The notes under the pieces are model-generated. The model saw only the letters and a program-made list of their open reading frames with translations. It ran no database searches and had not been told where the DNA came from. The translations under genes and the position numbers were made by a program. From Deltaproteobacteria bacterium (GTDB taxonomy: Bacteria; Desulfobacterota; GWC2-55-46; UBA9637): 63,968 nucleotides of DNA. How positions within the stretch are numbered: position 1 is the first letter of the stretch; each line of letters begins with the position of its first letter. Location: positions 1 through 63,968 of the forward strand of contig JAUYHF010000066.1 of assembly GCA_030690165.1 (NCBI GenBank), in the 5' to 3' direction. Of this stretch, positions 35,640 through 42,833 are shown piece after piece.

Positions 35640-35710
35640 ATTTTAATCCAGCCTGAACCCAATATCTATTTCCATTGCCCATCTCGTGACAGTTAGTCAT
35701 AATCTTTGGG

Positions 35711-35739
35711 TTGACTTTTTATTTTTAGTCTATTATTAT
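35711..35739 (+). promoter_or_regulatory. sigma-70-like promoter of the ion/osmolyte cluster
   Basis: TTGACT (35711-35716), a 17-base spacer and TATTAT (35734-35739). A TATAAT at 35747-35752 is an alternative -10 without a good -35. Confidence 0.6.
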
Positions 35740-35756
35740 TGCTGCATATAATTTTT

Positions 35757-35846
35757 GCGGACGGACGCGCCTGAATTTTATTCAGGAGAGAAGGCCAGTG
35801 ATTAAACACTTAAACAGATGGTGTTATTGCTGGCCTTTTTTATTTT
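35757..35846 (+). promoter_or_regulatory. structured leader with intrinsic terminator, candidate riboswitch
   Basis: The leader between promoter and antiporter gene has a dense G/C motif GCGGACGGACGCG, a perfect hairpin CCTGAA-TTTTA-TTCAGG (35770-35786), and AGAG. A terminator stem AAGGCCAG / CTGGCCTT (35791-35798 with 35830-35837) with inner AACAC/GTGTT is followed by TTTTTATTTTT. The terminator lies before the start codon, so it must be read through for expression; this is the plan of a transcription-terminating riboswitch or attenuator. Given the downstream cation transporter, a Na+ or Li+ sensing class is the first candidate. I cannot verify a class match here. Confidence 0.55.
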
Positions 35847-35866
35847 TAGTCGGTAGAGGTGGGTTC

Positions 35867-37075
35867 ATGGATGTATCCGAGTTTTTTCTTAAATTGCTCT
35901 TGATAATCATTTCCGCAAAATTTTTTGCCGAGGTGTTTACATATCTGCATCTTCCCTCTGTTCTTGGTGAAGTTATAGCAGGGATTATCATTGGCCCAAG
36001 TTTATTAGGTTTTATAGAGCCTGATGCGACATTTCATCTCCTTGCCGAAATCGGGATACTCCTTCTCCTCTTTGAGGTGGGGCTTGAGACCGATGTGGGG
36101 CAGATTATCAAGGTGGGTATTCAATCTACCCTTGTGGCAATAACAGGCGTTGTAATTCCTGCAGCGTTTGGTTTCTGGGTATCATATAACTGGTTTGGGC
36201 TACCTTTGATAGCATCCCTTTTTGTAGGCGGAACCATTGTCGCCACCAGTATCGGCATTACCGTAAGGGTTCTGACAGATTTAAAGAAGCAGAGTACAGT
36301 TGTTTCAAAGATTGTATTAGGCGCTGCTGTTCTGGATGATGTAATCGGTGTCGTCGTGCTGGCAGTGCTATATGACTTTGCCGTAAAAGGGACTGTCAGC
36401 ATCATGGATACAGGAAGGATTCTGCTTTTCATTACAGTATTCCTGATATTCGCGCCTGTTATTACAAAAATGTTTGTACCCATGATGGCAAAACTTTCAT
36501 CCGCAAGTAAAACAAAGGGCATGATACCGGCCCTTATTGTATCACTGATACTGGGTCTGGCTGTCATCTCCCATAAAGTCGGTGCGCCGGAGATTTTAGG
36601 CTCGTTTGCAGCAGGCATTGCCATGGCAAGAAGATTCTTCCTTCCTCTGGGTTCAACCAATGCACATTACAGCCATAAGATGGCGGAAAAGATAGAAGAA
36701 AGCATGAAACCGATAATAGAACTATTTGTTCCGGTATTTTTTGTTATGGTTGGCGCCTCTATAGATTTTAGGGTAATTGATATTACATCAGGTGCATTCT
36801 GGGGTTTTGCAGGAATACTTACTGTAATTGCCATAATCACAAAGATGACAAGCGGCTTATGGGTGAGAGGCGGCTGGAATAAAAAACTCTCAACAGGGAT
36901 TGCCATGGTGCCCAGAGGCGAGGTAGGGCTTATATTTGCAGAGATCGGCAAAAGGAGCAAAATATTTGATGAAACCACCTATGCTGTTATTATCTTCGTT
37001 GTAGCATTTACAACACTCTTTGCTCCACTGGCACTCAAATATGTAATGAAGGATGACGATAAAGACCCTTCTTAA
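35867..37075 (+). CDS. CPA2-type Na+/H+ (or K+/H+) antiporter
   Basis: 402 residues from ATG 35867 (GTAGAGGTGG upstream); an earlier in-frame ATG at 35798 lies inside the terminator hairpin and is rejected. About 12 membrane helices. The CPA2 core motifs are LPSVLGEVIAGIIIGPSLLG near residue 30, LLLLFEVGLETD, the ion-binding pair in GAAVLDDVIGVV near residue 162, and FAAGIAMAR. There is no C-terminal RCK/TrkA-N domain, unlike KefB/KefC. It exchanges a monovalent cation for protons; which cation is inference. First gene of the osmoadaptation cluster. Confidence 0.9.
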   Translation: MDVSEFFLKLLLIIISAKFFAEVFTYLHLPSVLGEVIAGIIIGPSLLGFIEPDATFHLLAEIGILLLLFEVGLETDVGQIIKVGIQSTLVAITGVVIPAAFGFWVSYNWFGLPLIASLFVGGTIVATSIGITVRVLTDLKKQSTVVSKIVLGAAVLDDVIGVVVLAVLYDFAVKGTVSIMDTGRILLFITVFLIFAPVITKMFVPMMAKLSSASKTKGMIPALIVSLILGLAVISHKVGAPEILGSFAAGIAMARRFFLPLGSTNAHYSHKMAEKIEESMKPIIELFVPVFFVMVGASIDFRVIDITSGAFWGFAGILTVIAIITKMTSGLWVRGGWNKKLSTGIAMVPRGEVGLIFAEIGKRSKIFDETTYAVIIFVVAFTTLFAPLALKYVMKDDDKDPS

Positions 37076-38101: not shown

Positions 38102-38979
38102 TGGCAAAGATAATAATGTTTACAGACCTTGACGGCACATTACTGCACCCGAAAACCTATTTTTTTGACGCAGCGATGCCTGCACTCAAACTGATAAAGG
38201 AAAAAGATATACCCCTCATCCTCTGCTCAAGCAAGACAAGGACGGAAATAGAGGTTTACCGAAAGAAGCTTGATAACCAACACCCCTTTATTTCTGAAAA
38301 TGGGGGAGGGATATTTATTCCGGAGGGATATTTCGGTTTTAATCCGCCTAAGGCGGAGGAGGGTGACTTGAGAGATGGTTGCCGTATGATTACCTTAGGC
38401 AAGTCATACAGCGAAATAAGAAAGGCCTTTATTACAATTCGTGAAAGGCTGGGGATAAAGGCAAAAGGCTTTGGCGATATGAGCGTTAAAGAGATAGCAG
38501 CCCTGGCAGGCCTGACATTAACAGAGGCAGAGCTTGCAAAACAGAGGGAATTTGATGAACCTTTTTTATTTGAAGATTTGTCCCCGCAGGTCTTAAGCGG
38601 GGAAGGGGAGATGCGGATTAAAGAGTTTTTAAAGGCAATTGAAGACGCATGTCTTCATTGGACTCAGGGAAGGTTTTACCATATCCTTGGAGATAACGAT
38701 AAAGGGAAGGCAGTTAGAGTTCTGAAGGGGTTTTACGAAAAGGCCTATGGCAGGATTAAGACAATAGGTCTTGGAGATAGGTTCAACGACCTTCCGCTGT
38801 TAAAGCAAGTGGATTATCCTGTGCTTGTTCAGGATGAAGATGGTTCTTATGATGCAAGGGTGAATATGCCAAATCTGATAAGGGCGGACGGCATTGGTCC
38901 TGAGGGGTGGAATAAGGAAGTGATAAAAGTAATAGAAGCAGACGTTAAAAAAGCGCACAAACAGTATATTTTTCCCTGA
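38101..38979 (+). CDS. mannosyl-3-phosphoglycerate phosphatase-like HAD hydrolase
   Basis: 292 residues from ATG 38101, which overlaps the previous stop. HAD-IIB phosphatase: nucleophile motif FTDLDGTLL at residues 5-13, LILCSSKTRTEIE (motif 2 Ser), HPFISENGGGIFIP, and the C-terminal GDNDKGKAVRVL and GLGDRFNDLPLL (motifs 3/4). This order is specific to the MpgP/YedP group, which removes phosphate from mannosyl- or glucosyl-3-phosphoglycerate. With the GpgS-type synthase at 43556 in the same cluster it probably makes free glucosylglycerate. Confidence 0.85.
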   Translation: MAKIIMFTDLDGTLLHPKTYFFDAAMPALKLIKEKDIPLILCSSKTRTEIEVYRKKLDNQHPFISENGGGIFIPEGYFGFNPPKAEEGDLRDGCRMITLGKSYSEIRKAFITIRERLGIKAKGFGDMSVKEIAALAGLTLTEAELAKQREFDEPFLFEDLSPQVLSGEGEMRIKEFLKAIEDACLHWTQGRFYHILGDNDKGKAVRVLKGFYEKAYGRIKTIGLGDRFNDLPLLKQVDYPVLVQDEDGSYDARVNMPNLIRADGIGPEGWNKEVIKVIEADVKKAHKQYIFP

Positions 38980-39104: not shown

Positions 39105-40442
39105 ATGAGACGAAAAGAACTTTATTCTATATTTTACGCTGGGGTGGAGGCGGTGGATCCATACAGGCTTGTTTTGCAGGCCGTGCGCCTTGATGAGAGG
39201 AATCTCAAGATTGGAGATATGTCCTATGACCTGAACCATTTTAAAAATATCATAGTAATCGGGGCTGGCAAGGCAGCAGCCCCAATGGCTCAGGCAATAG
39301 AATCCGTCTTAGGCAGGTTTATTGCCGATGGCAGAATAATCGTGAAATACGGTCATGCAGCAATACTGAAAAGGATAAAGGTGATGGAGGCGTCTCATCC
39401 TGTGCCTGATGAGGCTGGGGTAAAAGAGACAGAGAATATTATCAAAATGCTGCAAAGGGCTGATGAACAAACCCTCGTTATATGCCTCATCTCAGGCGGC
39501 GCTTCTGCCTTATTGGTCTCGCCTGCTGACAGCATAACTCTTGAAGACAAAAAGATTGTAACAGAGCTTCTTCTCAAGGCGGGCGCAACGATAGATGAGT
39601 TAAACACTGTCCGAAAGCATTTATCCAAAGTAAAAGGAGGAAGGCTTATCCAGATTGCATCTCCTGTTGCTGTAGTAACCCTCATACTCTCGGATGTCAT
39701 AGGCGACAGGCTTGATGTGATAGCATCAGGCCCGACAACGCCTGACCCTACTACATTCAAGGATGCAATGGCTGTAATAAAAAAATATCGCATTGAAAAA
39801 AGACTGCCCTCAAAGGTATTAAAGCTTTTAAGGCAGGGTATCAACGGCATGATAAAGGATACCCCAAAGGGAGATGAGTCTTTTTTTAGAAAGACAAAGG
39901 CTGTTGTTATCGGAAGCCTTAAAAATGCGATTGCCTCTGCAAGGGGAAAGGCCATATCTCTCGGTTTTAACACTGATATCATCACCTATGAGCTTCAGGG
40001 AGAGGCAAGAGATGCCGCCAGATACCTATCTGCAAGGGCTATAGAGGTGCGGAATTCCACAAAAAAAAGGGGAAATCCTCGCTGCCTCATTTCTGGTGGA
40101 GAAACAACTGTTACTGTCAAGGGAAAGGGAGTTGGCGGCAGGAATCAGGAGCTTGCCCTATCCTTTGCAATGGAGATAGAAGGGATGAAAGGGATAATCA
40201 TGCTTTCTGCTGGCACAGACGGAACAGACGGGCCTACAGATGCTGCCGGCGCAATCGTAAATGGAAATACTGCGATATTGGCAAGGGAACTTGGCATTAT
40301 CCCGGAAATTTACCTTGAGAATAACAACTCCTATAACTTTTTTAAGAGGCTTGATTTCCTGTCTAAGAGAAGATACCATTTCCTGACAGGCCCTACAGGA
40401 ACGAATGTTATGGATATACAAATTATACTTGTGGAGAGATGA
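39105..40442 (+). CDS. glycerate 2-kinase (GckA/MOFRL type)
   Basis: 445 residues. The DUF4147 N-terminal domain has VIGAGKAAAPMAQAIE near residue 50, EASHPVPDEAG and LISGGASALL. The MOFRL C-terminal domain has CLISGGETTVTVKGKGVGGRNQELALSFA and LSAGTDGTDGPTDAAGAIV. It phosphorylates D-glycerate to 2-phosphoglycerate, feeding free glycerate into glycolysis. In this cluster it would recycle or control glycerate, the aglycone of glucosylglycerate; that link is inference. It overlaps the next gene by four bases. Confidence 0.9.
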   Translation: MRRKELYSIFYAGVEAVDPYRLVLQAVRLDERNLKIGDMSYDLNHFKNIIVIGAGKAAAPMAQAIESVLGRFIADGRIIVKYGHAAILKRIKVMEASHPVPDEAGVKETENIIKMLQRADEQTLVICLISGGASALLVSPADSITLEDKKIVTELLLKAGATIDELNTVRKHLSKVKGGRLIQIASPVAVVTLILSDVIGDRLDVIASGPTTPDPTTFKDAMAVIKKYRIEKRLPSKVLKLLRQGINGMIKDTPKGDESFFRKTKAVVIGSLKNAIASARGKAISLGFNTDIITYELQGEARDAARYLSARAIEVRNSTKKRGNPRCLISGGETTVTVKGKGVGGRNQELALSFAMEIEGMKGIIMLSAGTDGTDGPTDAAGAIVNGNTAILARELGIIPEIYLENNNSYNFFKRLDFLSKRRYHFLTGPTGTNVMDIQIILVER

Positions 40443-41608
40443 CATATATGGCAAAGACAGCAATAGTCATCCCTGCCTATATCAAGGCAGATTCTCCACA
40501 GGAAATCAGTAAAACCACAGGGTTCAAGATGCTCAAGAGGGCGCTGAAAAGCCTTGAAATCCTTAAAAACGGAGAGTTGGATATTATCCTTCCATTTTGT
40601 ATTGAAGGGAAAGGTATAGATGAAGATACTGCAAAGGGATACCACTCCCTGTTAATGGAAACTCTCGCATATCCTTTTCCTTTTAGAAGGGTTATCTTAA
40701 CAGCATATAATCTTAACGCAGTAAAAGAGCGCATCTTACGAAATGGATTTTCTGATATTGCGGAAAAATTGAATGTGTGCGGTTTTCCTAATATAAGGAA
40801 TTGCGGTCTTATAATTTCTCAGGCATTAGGCGCAGAGGTTACTATCTTTCTGGATAACGACGAGATAATAGAAGACCCTGATTTCCTGCATGTAGCGCTG
40901 GAAGGAGTTACGGAGCCTGCCGATGGTATGAAAATGGATGGAAAGGGCGGGTTATATATATCAAAGGATGGCGGGATTTATGAAAAAACCACCCCTCCAT
41001 GGTGGCAGGTTTCGTGGAACAAATCAAAGTTGTTTCAAGCTGTCTGGGAAGCTATAATTGAGAGCAAAGATAGGTTTGTTGAGTCTCCGGTGGTGTTGGG
41101 CGGCAACCTCGTTCTTAGCCGAAGGCTTTTTGAGCGCATACCTTTTGACCCGTTAATTCCACGTGGTGAGGATATAGATTATCTGATAAATGCGCGACTT
41201 GCCGGTTTAAAGGTATTATTTGATAAACACCTTAAGATAAAACATCTTCCTTTAGAAAGAACCTTCTCATACAGGAAGGAAGAGTTGAAGGGGGATATAG
41301 AGAGGTTTCTTTACGAAAGGGCAAAGGTTATGGGTCATAAAGGGTTGAACCTGTCCCCTTACCCGGGATATTTTTTAAAATGGGATATGGAAATTAAGGC
41401 TGTGATTACTATTATACTGTTTTCTCTCTATCTGGCTTCAAACAATCAATGGGTAGAATCTATAAAAGTTTATACTTATCTCAAATCTTTGTTTAGGAAA
41501 AGGAAAGATATAGGATTTTATAAACAATTCAGGCAGAGATGGGCGCCCTTTATGGAGTTTATAAGGCTTGATGGGTTAAAGGATATACTTAAGGAAAGTT
41601 CTTTATAA
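40439..41608 (+). CDS. GT-A fold glycosyltransferase, substrate unknown
   Basis: 389 residues from ATG 40439 (or 386 from ATG 40448). It starts TAIVIPAYIKADSPQEISKTTGFKMLKRALKSLEIL, a family-2-like nucleotide-sugar fold. A metal-binding acidic motif lies in VTIFLDNDEIIEDPDFL near residue 142, VVLGGNLVLSRRLF follows, and the candidate catalytic Asp is in PRGEDIDYLINARLAGL. The C-terminal 100 residues are helical. No transmembrane segment is strong. It sits between glycerate kinase and the Ggs-like gene, so a role in a glycerate-linked saccharide is plausible but not shown. Confidence 0.75.
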   Translation: MTYMAKTAIVIPAYIKADSPQEISKTTGFKMLKRALKSLEILKNGELDIILPFCIEGKGIDEDTAKGYHSLLMETLAYPFPFRRVILTAYNLNAVKERILRNGFSDIAEKLNVCGFPNIRNCGLIISQALGAEVTIFLDNDEIIEDPDFLHVALEGVTEPADGMKMDGKGGLYISKDGGIYEKTTPPWWQVSWNKSKLFQAVWEAIIESKDRFVESPVVLGGNLVLSRRLFERIPFDPLIPRGEDIDYLINARLAGLKVLFDKHLKIKHLPLERTFSYRKEELKGDIERFLYERAKVMGHKGLNLSPYPGYFLKWDMEIKAVITIILFSLYLASNNQWVESIKVYTYLKSLFRKRKDIGFYKQFRQRWAPFMEFIRLDGLKDILKESSL

Positions 41609-41612
41609 AATT

Positions 41613-42833
41613 ATGGCAATAAATCCGGAGAAGATAGATATCCTTGTTGGAATTGCAAGCTATAACAACGCAAAAACCATTGGCCATGTAGTAAGGGCAG
41701 TGGGCGCCGGGCTTGCAAAATATTTTCCTGATAAGAAGGCTGTTATACTTAATTCAGACGGAGGCTCTGCAGATGGAACGCCTGATATTGTAAGAAATGC
41801 CTCATTTGACCATGCAGCCATTTTCCTCTCCCATCCTGTTTATCCTGCGCACAGGATAAGTGTCCCTTACAACGGGATACCCGGCAAGGGGAGCGCATTC
41901 AGGGCAATATTTCAAAAGGCTGTAGAACTCAATGCTGACGCGTGCTGCGCGGTAGATGCAGATTTGAGAAGTATAACACCGGAATGGGTGGAACTGCTTC
42001 TCTCTCCTGTAATAAAAAGGGGTTTTGATTTTGTTGCTCCATTCTACAACAGGCACAAATTCGACGGCACCATAACTAATTCAATTGTATATCCCATGAC
42101 AAGGGCATTATACGGCCACAGCATAAGACAGCCTATTGGAGGCGACTTCGGTTTTTCAGGAGCGATGGCTGAGTTTTATTCTAAGCAGGATGTATGGGAG
42201 ACCCATGTGGCCCGTTTTGGCATAGACATATGGATGACCACTGAGGCCATTGCCAATAATTTCAAGGTCTGCCAGACATTCCTCGGCGCAAAACTCCATG
42301 ACCCAAAAGACCCGGGTGCAGACCTGTCAGATATGCTCCTTCAGGTGGTTGTTAGCTTATTTAATCTTACTGAGAAACATTTTGAAGTGTGGAAGAATAT
42401 AAGGGGCTTGCGGGACATCCCTACATTCGGATTCAGATATCATGTTGGTCTTGAACCCGTAAAGGTGAATGTAGCGAGGATGCTGGATATATTCAGGACC
42501 GGCGTCAGAGACCTTAAACCTATTTTACTTGAAATATTGGGTCCTGGCGATTTTGGAGAGATAGAAATTATTTGCCAGCGCCCTGATAAAGATTTCAGGT
42601 TTCCCATAGGTTTATGGGTAAGGATTATCTATGATTATGCCTTGACCTATCATAGAAAGAAGATGTCCTCTGAGCATCTTTTAAAATCCCTTGTCCACTT
42701 ATACCTTGGAAAGACCGCATCCTTTATTATGGAGGTTGCTGATACTGACCACGAGGGCGCAGAGGCAGAGATCGAGAAGCTATGCCGTGAGTTTGAGGAA
42801 AGGAAAGATTATCTTATAAATAACTGGAATTGA
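41613..42833 (+). CDS. glucosylglycerate synthase-like glycosyltransferase
   Basis: 406 residues. It opens ILVGIASYNNAKTIGHVVRAV, then VILNSDGGSADGTPDIV, YNGIPGKGSAFRAIF, the DXD-type AVDADLRSITPEWVELL near residue 113, FDGTITNSIVYPMTRALYG and RQPIGGDFGFSGAM. From memory this order is that of glucosylglycerate synthase (Ggs, Persephonella type), which uses GDP-glucose and free D-glycerate in one step. That would fit the glycerate kinase two genes upstream. Related enzymes use other sugars or acceptors, so the exact product is uncertain. Confidence 0.65.
   Translation: MAINPEKIDILVGIASYNNAKTIGHVVRAVGAGLAKYFPDKKAVILNSDGGSADGTPDIVRNASFDHAAIFLSHPVYPAHRISVPYNGIPGKGSAFRAIFQKAVELNADACCAVDADLRSITPEWVELLLSPVIKRGFDFVAPFYNRHKFDGTITNSIVYPMTRALYGHSIRQPIGGDFGFSGAMAEFYSKQDVWETHVARFGIDIWMTTEAIANNFKVCQTFLGAKLHDPKDPGADLSDMLLQVVVSLFNLTEKHFEVWKNIRGLRDIPTFGFRYHVGLEPVKVNVARMLDIFRTGVRDLKPILLEILGPGDFGEIEIICQRPDKDFRFPIGLWVRIIYDYALTYHRKKMSSEHLLKSLVHLYLGKTASFIMEVADTDHEGAEAEIEKLCREFEERKDYLINNWN

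Follow-up and report, generated by a model that had tools for sequence, protein, structure and literature searches.

A previously undescribed terminator-coupled leader element, most likely a riboswitch, before Na+ export and compatible-solute genes of uncultured bacteria

Known ion-sensing RNAs and the antiporter leader

Gene control is known to sense alkali cations in few ways; for Na+, these are a single class of riboswitch, some rare variants belonging to a second class, and a single proven protein (PMC9337991). The validated class, Na+-I, is an ON switch acting via a terminator and controls nhaD, napA-like 'kefB' and osmolyte genes, and the c-di-AMP riboswitch (ydaO) occurs in tandem with it (PMC9337991). 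The nhaA-I motif is a Li+ riboswitch with Na+-II variants (RF03057), and nhaA-II is a further Li+ riboswitch (RF03038; PMC9646797, PMC9337991).

The window analysed here (the whole stretch of 63,968 nt of contig JAUYHF010000066.1) had been proposed in an earlier note to carry a cation-sensing riboswitch in the leader of an osmoadaptation cluster. The parts named there, i.e. a promoter, a G/C motif, a hairpin, an AGAG stretch and a terminator with a T-run ahead of an antiporter gene, are all present in the sequence. The promoter-like site (TTGACT-17-TATTAT, 35711–35739, forward strand as for all features below, sigma-70-like with 10/12 matches) was the top sigma-70-like site in a 3 kb scan. Downstream of it, GCGGACGGACGCG starts at position 35757, and family conservation together with the predicted fold points to a short stem, P1, at 35757–35768 (GCG / loop GACGGA / CGC). 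This is followed by the P2 hairpin CCTGAAT-TTT-ATTCAGG (35770–35786), seven base pairs without a mismatch, by the purine tail GGAGAG (35785–35790) and by a predicted intrinsic terminator, GGCCAG...CTGGCC-T6 (35793–35841). The latter was not listed by a pattern scan for terminators in which the loop was limited to 8 bases. The folding energy of the leader was -38.2 kcal/mol, compared with -19.0 ± 2.9 kcal/mol for shuffled sequences (z = -6.6, 0/200 as good), and its most stable ligand-free predicted fold contains P1, P2 and the terminator together.

The first gene under the leader (35867–37075) encodes a NapA-type Na+/H+ antiporter by domain match (CPA2, PF00999); its best solved relatives are the Na+/H+ antiporter structures 5bz2/4bwz (E = 9e-54), with KefC far off. 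Its start codon is most likely ATG 35867, after AGAGGTGGG; the start given in the list of open reading frames, GTG 35798, falls inside the terminator. The in-frame GTG extension (35798–35866) thus traverses the terminator, and automatic annotation may add a false 23-residue N-terminus to the antiporter.

Searches with cmscan against Rfam 15 at the gathering score returned nothing in the leader, and up to E = 10 positions 35640–35900 gave no Na+-I, nhaA-I, nhaA-II or c-di-AMP riboswitch match. The only leader matches up to that value (XIST A repeat, Thr leader and RefA5) were far below the cut-offs and unrelated. When nine members of the family described below were searched at a permissive E-value, the only matches touching the element were miRNA models on the long P2 of one of them (L060), again far below the cut-off. 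Likewise, RF03071 (Na+-I, gathering threshold 40.5 bits) had no hit over the cut-off in six carrying genomes, and RF03057 and RF03038 had none above it in five. Judged by sequence, the element is not a member of any of the tested families, and its assignment to the DUF1646/Na+-I, nhaA-I/II or c-di-AMP families, as the earlier note had suggested, was not borne out. That the Rfam models had missed a divergent Na+-I, nhaA-I or nhaA-II member is very improbable: the kinds of target gene are indeed shared with Na+-I and the nhaA families (PMC9337991, PMC9646797), but even the lenient search and the carrying genomes tested gave no such match, and the conserved sequences both differ from the Na+-I consensus and occupy other structural positions.

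Family size, conserved core and covariation

When 59 related genomes were searched at the DNA level, the leader turned up in three others, where it precedes the orthologous antiporter (L034), lies behind an hppA-like gene (L035) or precedes an NhaD antiporter (L036). A covariance model (R1) matched 16 of the 63 genomes of the class at E below 2e-6. With a pattern search, a scan of 84,980 species genomes with a pattern that demanded the exact core, and a second model (R2), a total of 39 places were compiled in roughly 30 genomes of at least two phylum-level groups, all carriers being metagenome-assembled genomes of uncultured bacteria labelled Nitrospirae, Nitrospiria, Thermodesulfovibrionia, 'Deltaproteobacteria', Desulfuromonadales or uncultured bacterium. 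The recurrence of core and terminator at 39 loci excludes a chance origin of the leader element. The earlier note would have taken two outcomes, in combination, as refuting its proposal, absence of any covariance-model hit and lack of conservation in the leaders of orthologous genes; the former was indeed obtained, while the segment proved to be kept in leaders, including that of the orthologous antiporter in L034.

Species-scan matches were judged real when a hairpin and a T-run, neither of them part of the search pattern, stood directly behind the core, as was the case for 27 of 99; the ~70 others came from unrelated taxa and, like one viral match, lacked a terminator and were regarded as chance. 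Inspected model hits at E ~5e-5 or weaker were also attributed to chance, a hit in G041:C39 (E = 3.7e-5) being a real member. A second genomic copy in C62, with 3 mismatches, lay within an open reading frame, had no terminator and was rejected. In genome G022, the leader of the antiporter orthologue (67% identical; L005:1150-1500) is devoid of the element, which is found instead before nhaD (L062).

The consensus of 35 aligned members reads GCGGACKGACGCGCC, a variable hairpin, GGARAG, 1–2 bases, GGCY and the terminator, of which P1 with its GACKGA loop, the variable P2 and the GGARAG tail make up a conserved domain of ~40 nt. Because the species scan demanded the exact core, its invariance is partly a consequence of the search; model searches free of this demand added only three members with core changes (L194, L197 and L198). 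Within the alignment P1 was invariant except for the fourth base of its loop. It offers no compensatory changes, the sole change (in L194) being uncompensated, and its pairing is therefore best described as a putative helix. At that locus (L194:1501-1549) the third P1 pair is broken (CGC to GGC) ~186 nt before a gene for a regulator-like ATPase, and the element may be degenerating or have been put to a new use.

In P2 the base is conserved and the upper part varies freely in both sequence and length. Across the alignment 93.1% of P2 cells were paired, as against 84% after shuffling and 31–64% in slid controls, and double-change cells numbered 34 compared with 10.6 in shuffled alignments (0/500). 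The second C-G pair of P2, otherwise invariant, is exchanged for U-A in L197 and U.G in L198, so this pair is supported too. Covariation, which the earlier note had suggested looking for in related leaders, was thus found for P2, and it is in P2 only that the structured domain shows the compensatory changes expected of a riboswitch.

An association was seen between position four of the P1 loop and the variable purine of the tail (a loop G was always accompanied by a tail G, a loop T by either purine; Fisher p = 7e-5, uncorrected for sequence relatedness), as would be expected if loop and tail touch. A terminator folds in 35/35 aligned members, beginning 1–2 nt after GGARAG at the conserved GGC, so that the abutment of an aptamer-like domain on the 5' terminator arm, noted before in the window, is an arrangement recurring in many genomes. 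The first two bases of this arm (GG) are invariant and their 3' partners are C or T, a modest hint that GG may also serve the upstream domain. Further upstream, TTGAC or TTGTC was present ~43 bases before the element at 26 of the 39 places compared with 7% of random places, suggesting that the RNA probably begins ~10 bases before P1. The element accordingly has the position of a 5' leader, with a promoter-like signal upstream in most members and, in every aligned one, an expression platform downstream.

Genes behind the element

Salt genes were the first downstream genes in 32 of the 37 members that could be read. Na+/H+ antiporters made up 22 of these (13 NhaD and nine NapA-type CPA2), and genes of glucosyl/mannosylglycerate synthesis another seven (three glucosyl-3-phosphoglycerate synthases, GpgS; one GpgS-like gene; three of the mannosyl-3-phosphoglycerate phosphatase family, MPGP), followed by two Na+/Ca2+ exchanger family genes and one CitMHS/ArsB permease. 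The remaining five comprised three small unknown proteins, one universal stress protein and one regulator-like gene.

Most gene types of the operon in the window were found elsewhere singly, immediately 3' of the element. Behind the antiporter, itself one such type, lie a Na+/Ca2+ exchanger family gene (PF01699, 37088–38101), homologues of which directly follow the element in L091 and L097; an MPGP family gene (38104–38979), with homologues so placed in L096, L119 and L139; and, after a glycerate 2-kinase-like gene assigned by domain match (DUF4147/MOFRL, 39105–40442) and a 389-aa gene for which profile searches gave no Pfam or NCBIfam match (40439–41608, flanked by osmolyte genes), a weakly GpgS-like glycosyltransferase gene (41613–42833), similar to the gene immediately 3' of the element in L058.

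The leader keeps the same set of functions while gene order changes, which is good evidence for control in cis by a common salt signal. The association with an osmoadaptation cluster, proposed from the window alone, therefore extends across genomes as a recurrent placement of the element before Na+ transporters and osmolyte genes. A constitutive terminator or an independent small RNA, uncoupled from the next gene, is an improbable explanation; a promoter-like sequence and a strong terminator would yield a discrete RNA of ~95 nt, but this would leave unexplained the prevalence of salt genes in first position across two phylum-level groups with differing gene orders, and several elements sit between genes on the same strand.

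In four loci (L119, L139, L142 and L151) the element is located 20–96 nt behind an hppA-like pyrophosphatase gene, a position in which it may attenuate read-through from hppA into the salt gene that follows. The small proteins first behind the element belong to one family (MGFFGNLFGKKEELPPLDPASPAAKRMDKF...; L133:847-1269, forward strand; L105:6610-7032, reverse strand; L158:700-1221, forward strand). All three carriers are labelled Nitrospirae, the L133 protein has no Pfam or NCBIfam match, and these are possibly members of an unrecognised salt-stress protein family.

Proposed mechanism, ligand and relation to known systems

Collectively, these observations make it probable that the leader belongs to a hitherto undescribed class of terminator-coupled RNAs that act in cis, most likely as riboswitches, and govern Na+ export and compatible-solute genes. 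In the mechanism we propose, the P1 loop would form, together with the GGARAG tail, a putative site at which a salt-linked ligand binds, Na+ being the most likely candidate. Without ligand, the terminator would be completed by its GGC arm and by the AGAG..UUUU extension, keeping the operon off; with ligand bound, the aptamer would retain the tail (perhaps together with GGC), the terminator base would fail to close and the antiporter/osmolyte operon would be transcribed. The ON direction is suggested by analogy with Na+-I, which prevents termination (PMC9337991), and the stability of P1, P2 and terminator together in the ligand-free fold is consistent with termination by default. As this predicted fold accommodates P1 and P2 alongside the terminator, competition would have to arise from the overlap of tail and GGC and from putative tertiary contacts.

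An attractive direct switch, in which the conserved GCC would pair with GGC in the 5' arm of the terminator, was considered and rejected. This alternative helix can form in all aligned members, but in the window it is 4.1 kcal/mol worse than P2, and the U-A exchange in L197 favours P2; it survives only as a conformation that the bound RNA might adopt.

The same features were weighed in terms of a protein-dependent attenuator, in which an RNA-binding protein at the P1 loop and GGARAG tail decides termination according to salt. The short invariant core (15 bases plus GGARAG) would suit a protein site as well, and the predicted fold has no clear mutually exclusive helix in the absence of a binder. 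However, no regulator gene consistently adjoins the element, and a co-inherited protein would have had to follow the same core into two phylum-level groups, so that we regard this explanation as unlikely.

For a riboswitch, the target genes favour Na+ as the likeliest ligand. Cation sensing, as proposed in the earlier note, is an expectation drawn from the neighbouring genes, while the conserved terminator-coupled leader at Na+ genes was confirmed and the named families were not. A new-class riboswitch that senses c-di-AMP, K+, Li+, pH or a metabolite of the osmolyte pathway instead has a small but appreciable likelihood. In its favour, a c-di-AMP synthase domain is encoded in 17 of the 18 carrying genomes tested, so an attempt to dismiss c-di-AMP through absence of the synthase failed, and seven members stand before glucosyl/mannosylglycerate synthesis genes. 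Against this, the commonest targets are Na+/H+ antiporters (22/37), and the sole tested genome with no synthase hit (G117, 95% complete) has two elements.

We put forward, tentatively and as a possibility short of probable, that the element is a new class of compact (~40 nt) riboswitch for Na+, without structural kinship to Na+-I or nhaA-I and independently evolved, which runs the Na+-export and glucosyl/mannosylglycerate programme of uncultured bacteria. If so, a further, unrelated RNA would share the targets of Na+-I, and selective recognition of Na+ would have been achieved by RNA on more than one occasion, here with an element among the smallest ion aptamers. The element would also mark a salt regulon, including unannotated genes, in groups known mainly from metagenomes. 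It is short and self-contained, which makes the question of its ligand directly testable.

A literature search, with most subscription papers and supplements beyond its reach, retrieved neither the core sequence nor a description of such a motif. What is new here is most likely the element family, salt-responsive, terminator-coupled and riboswitch-like; riboswitches of this kind are themselves known. Like Na+-I, the element is associated with Na+ transporter and osmolyte genes, including nhaD and NapA-type antiporters annotated kefB, and combines a short two-hairpin domain with a terminator adjoining or overlapping the aptamer (PMC9337991). In sequence it is unlike the Na+-I consensus (RF03071; GGUUGGG...CUUUCAAGA...ugGGGUGg), in which conservation resides in the P1 base and the P2 loop GGGUG, whereas here it resides in the loop of the first hairpin and the 3' purine tail. 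Control of Na+/H+ (Li+) antiporter genes is shared with nhaA-I and nhaA-II (PMC9646797, PMC9337991). Unlike these, the element targets NhaD and NapA, with no NhaA among the 37 first genes. The ydaO riboswitch for c-di-AMP likewise has osmotic-stress genes as targets, and it is much larger than the ~40 nt element.
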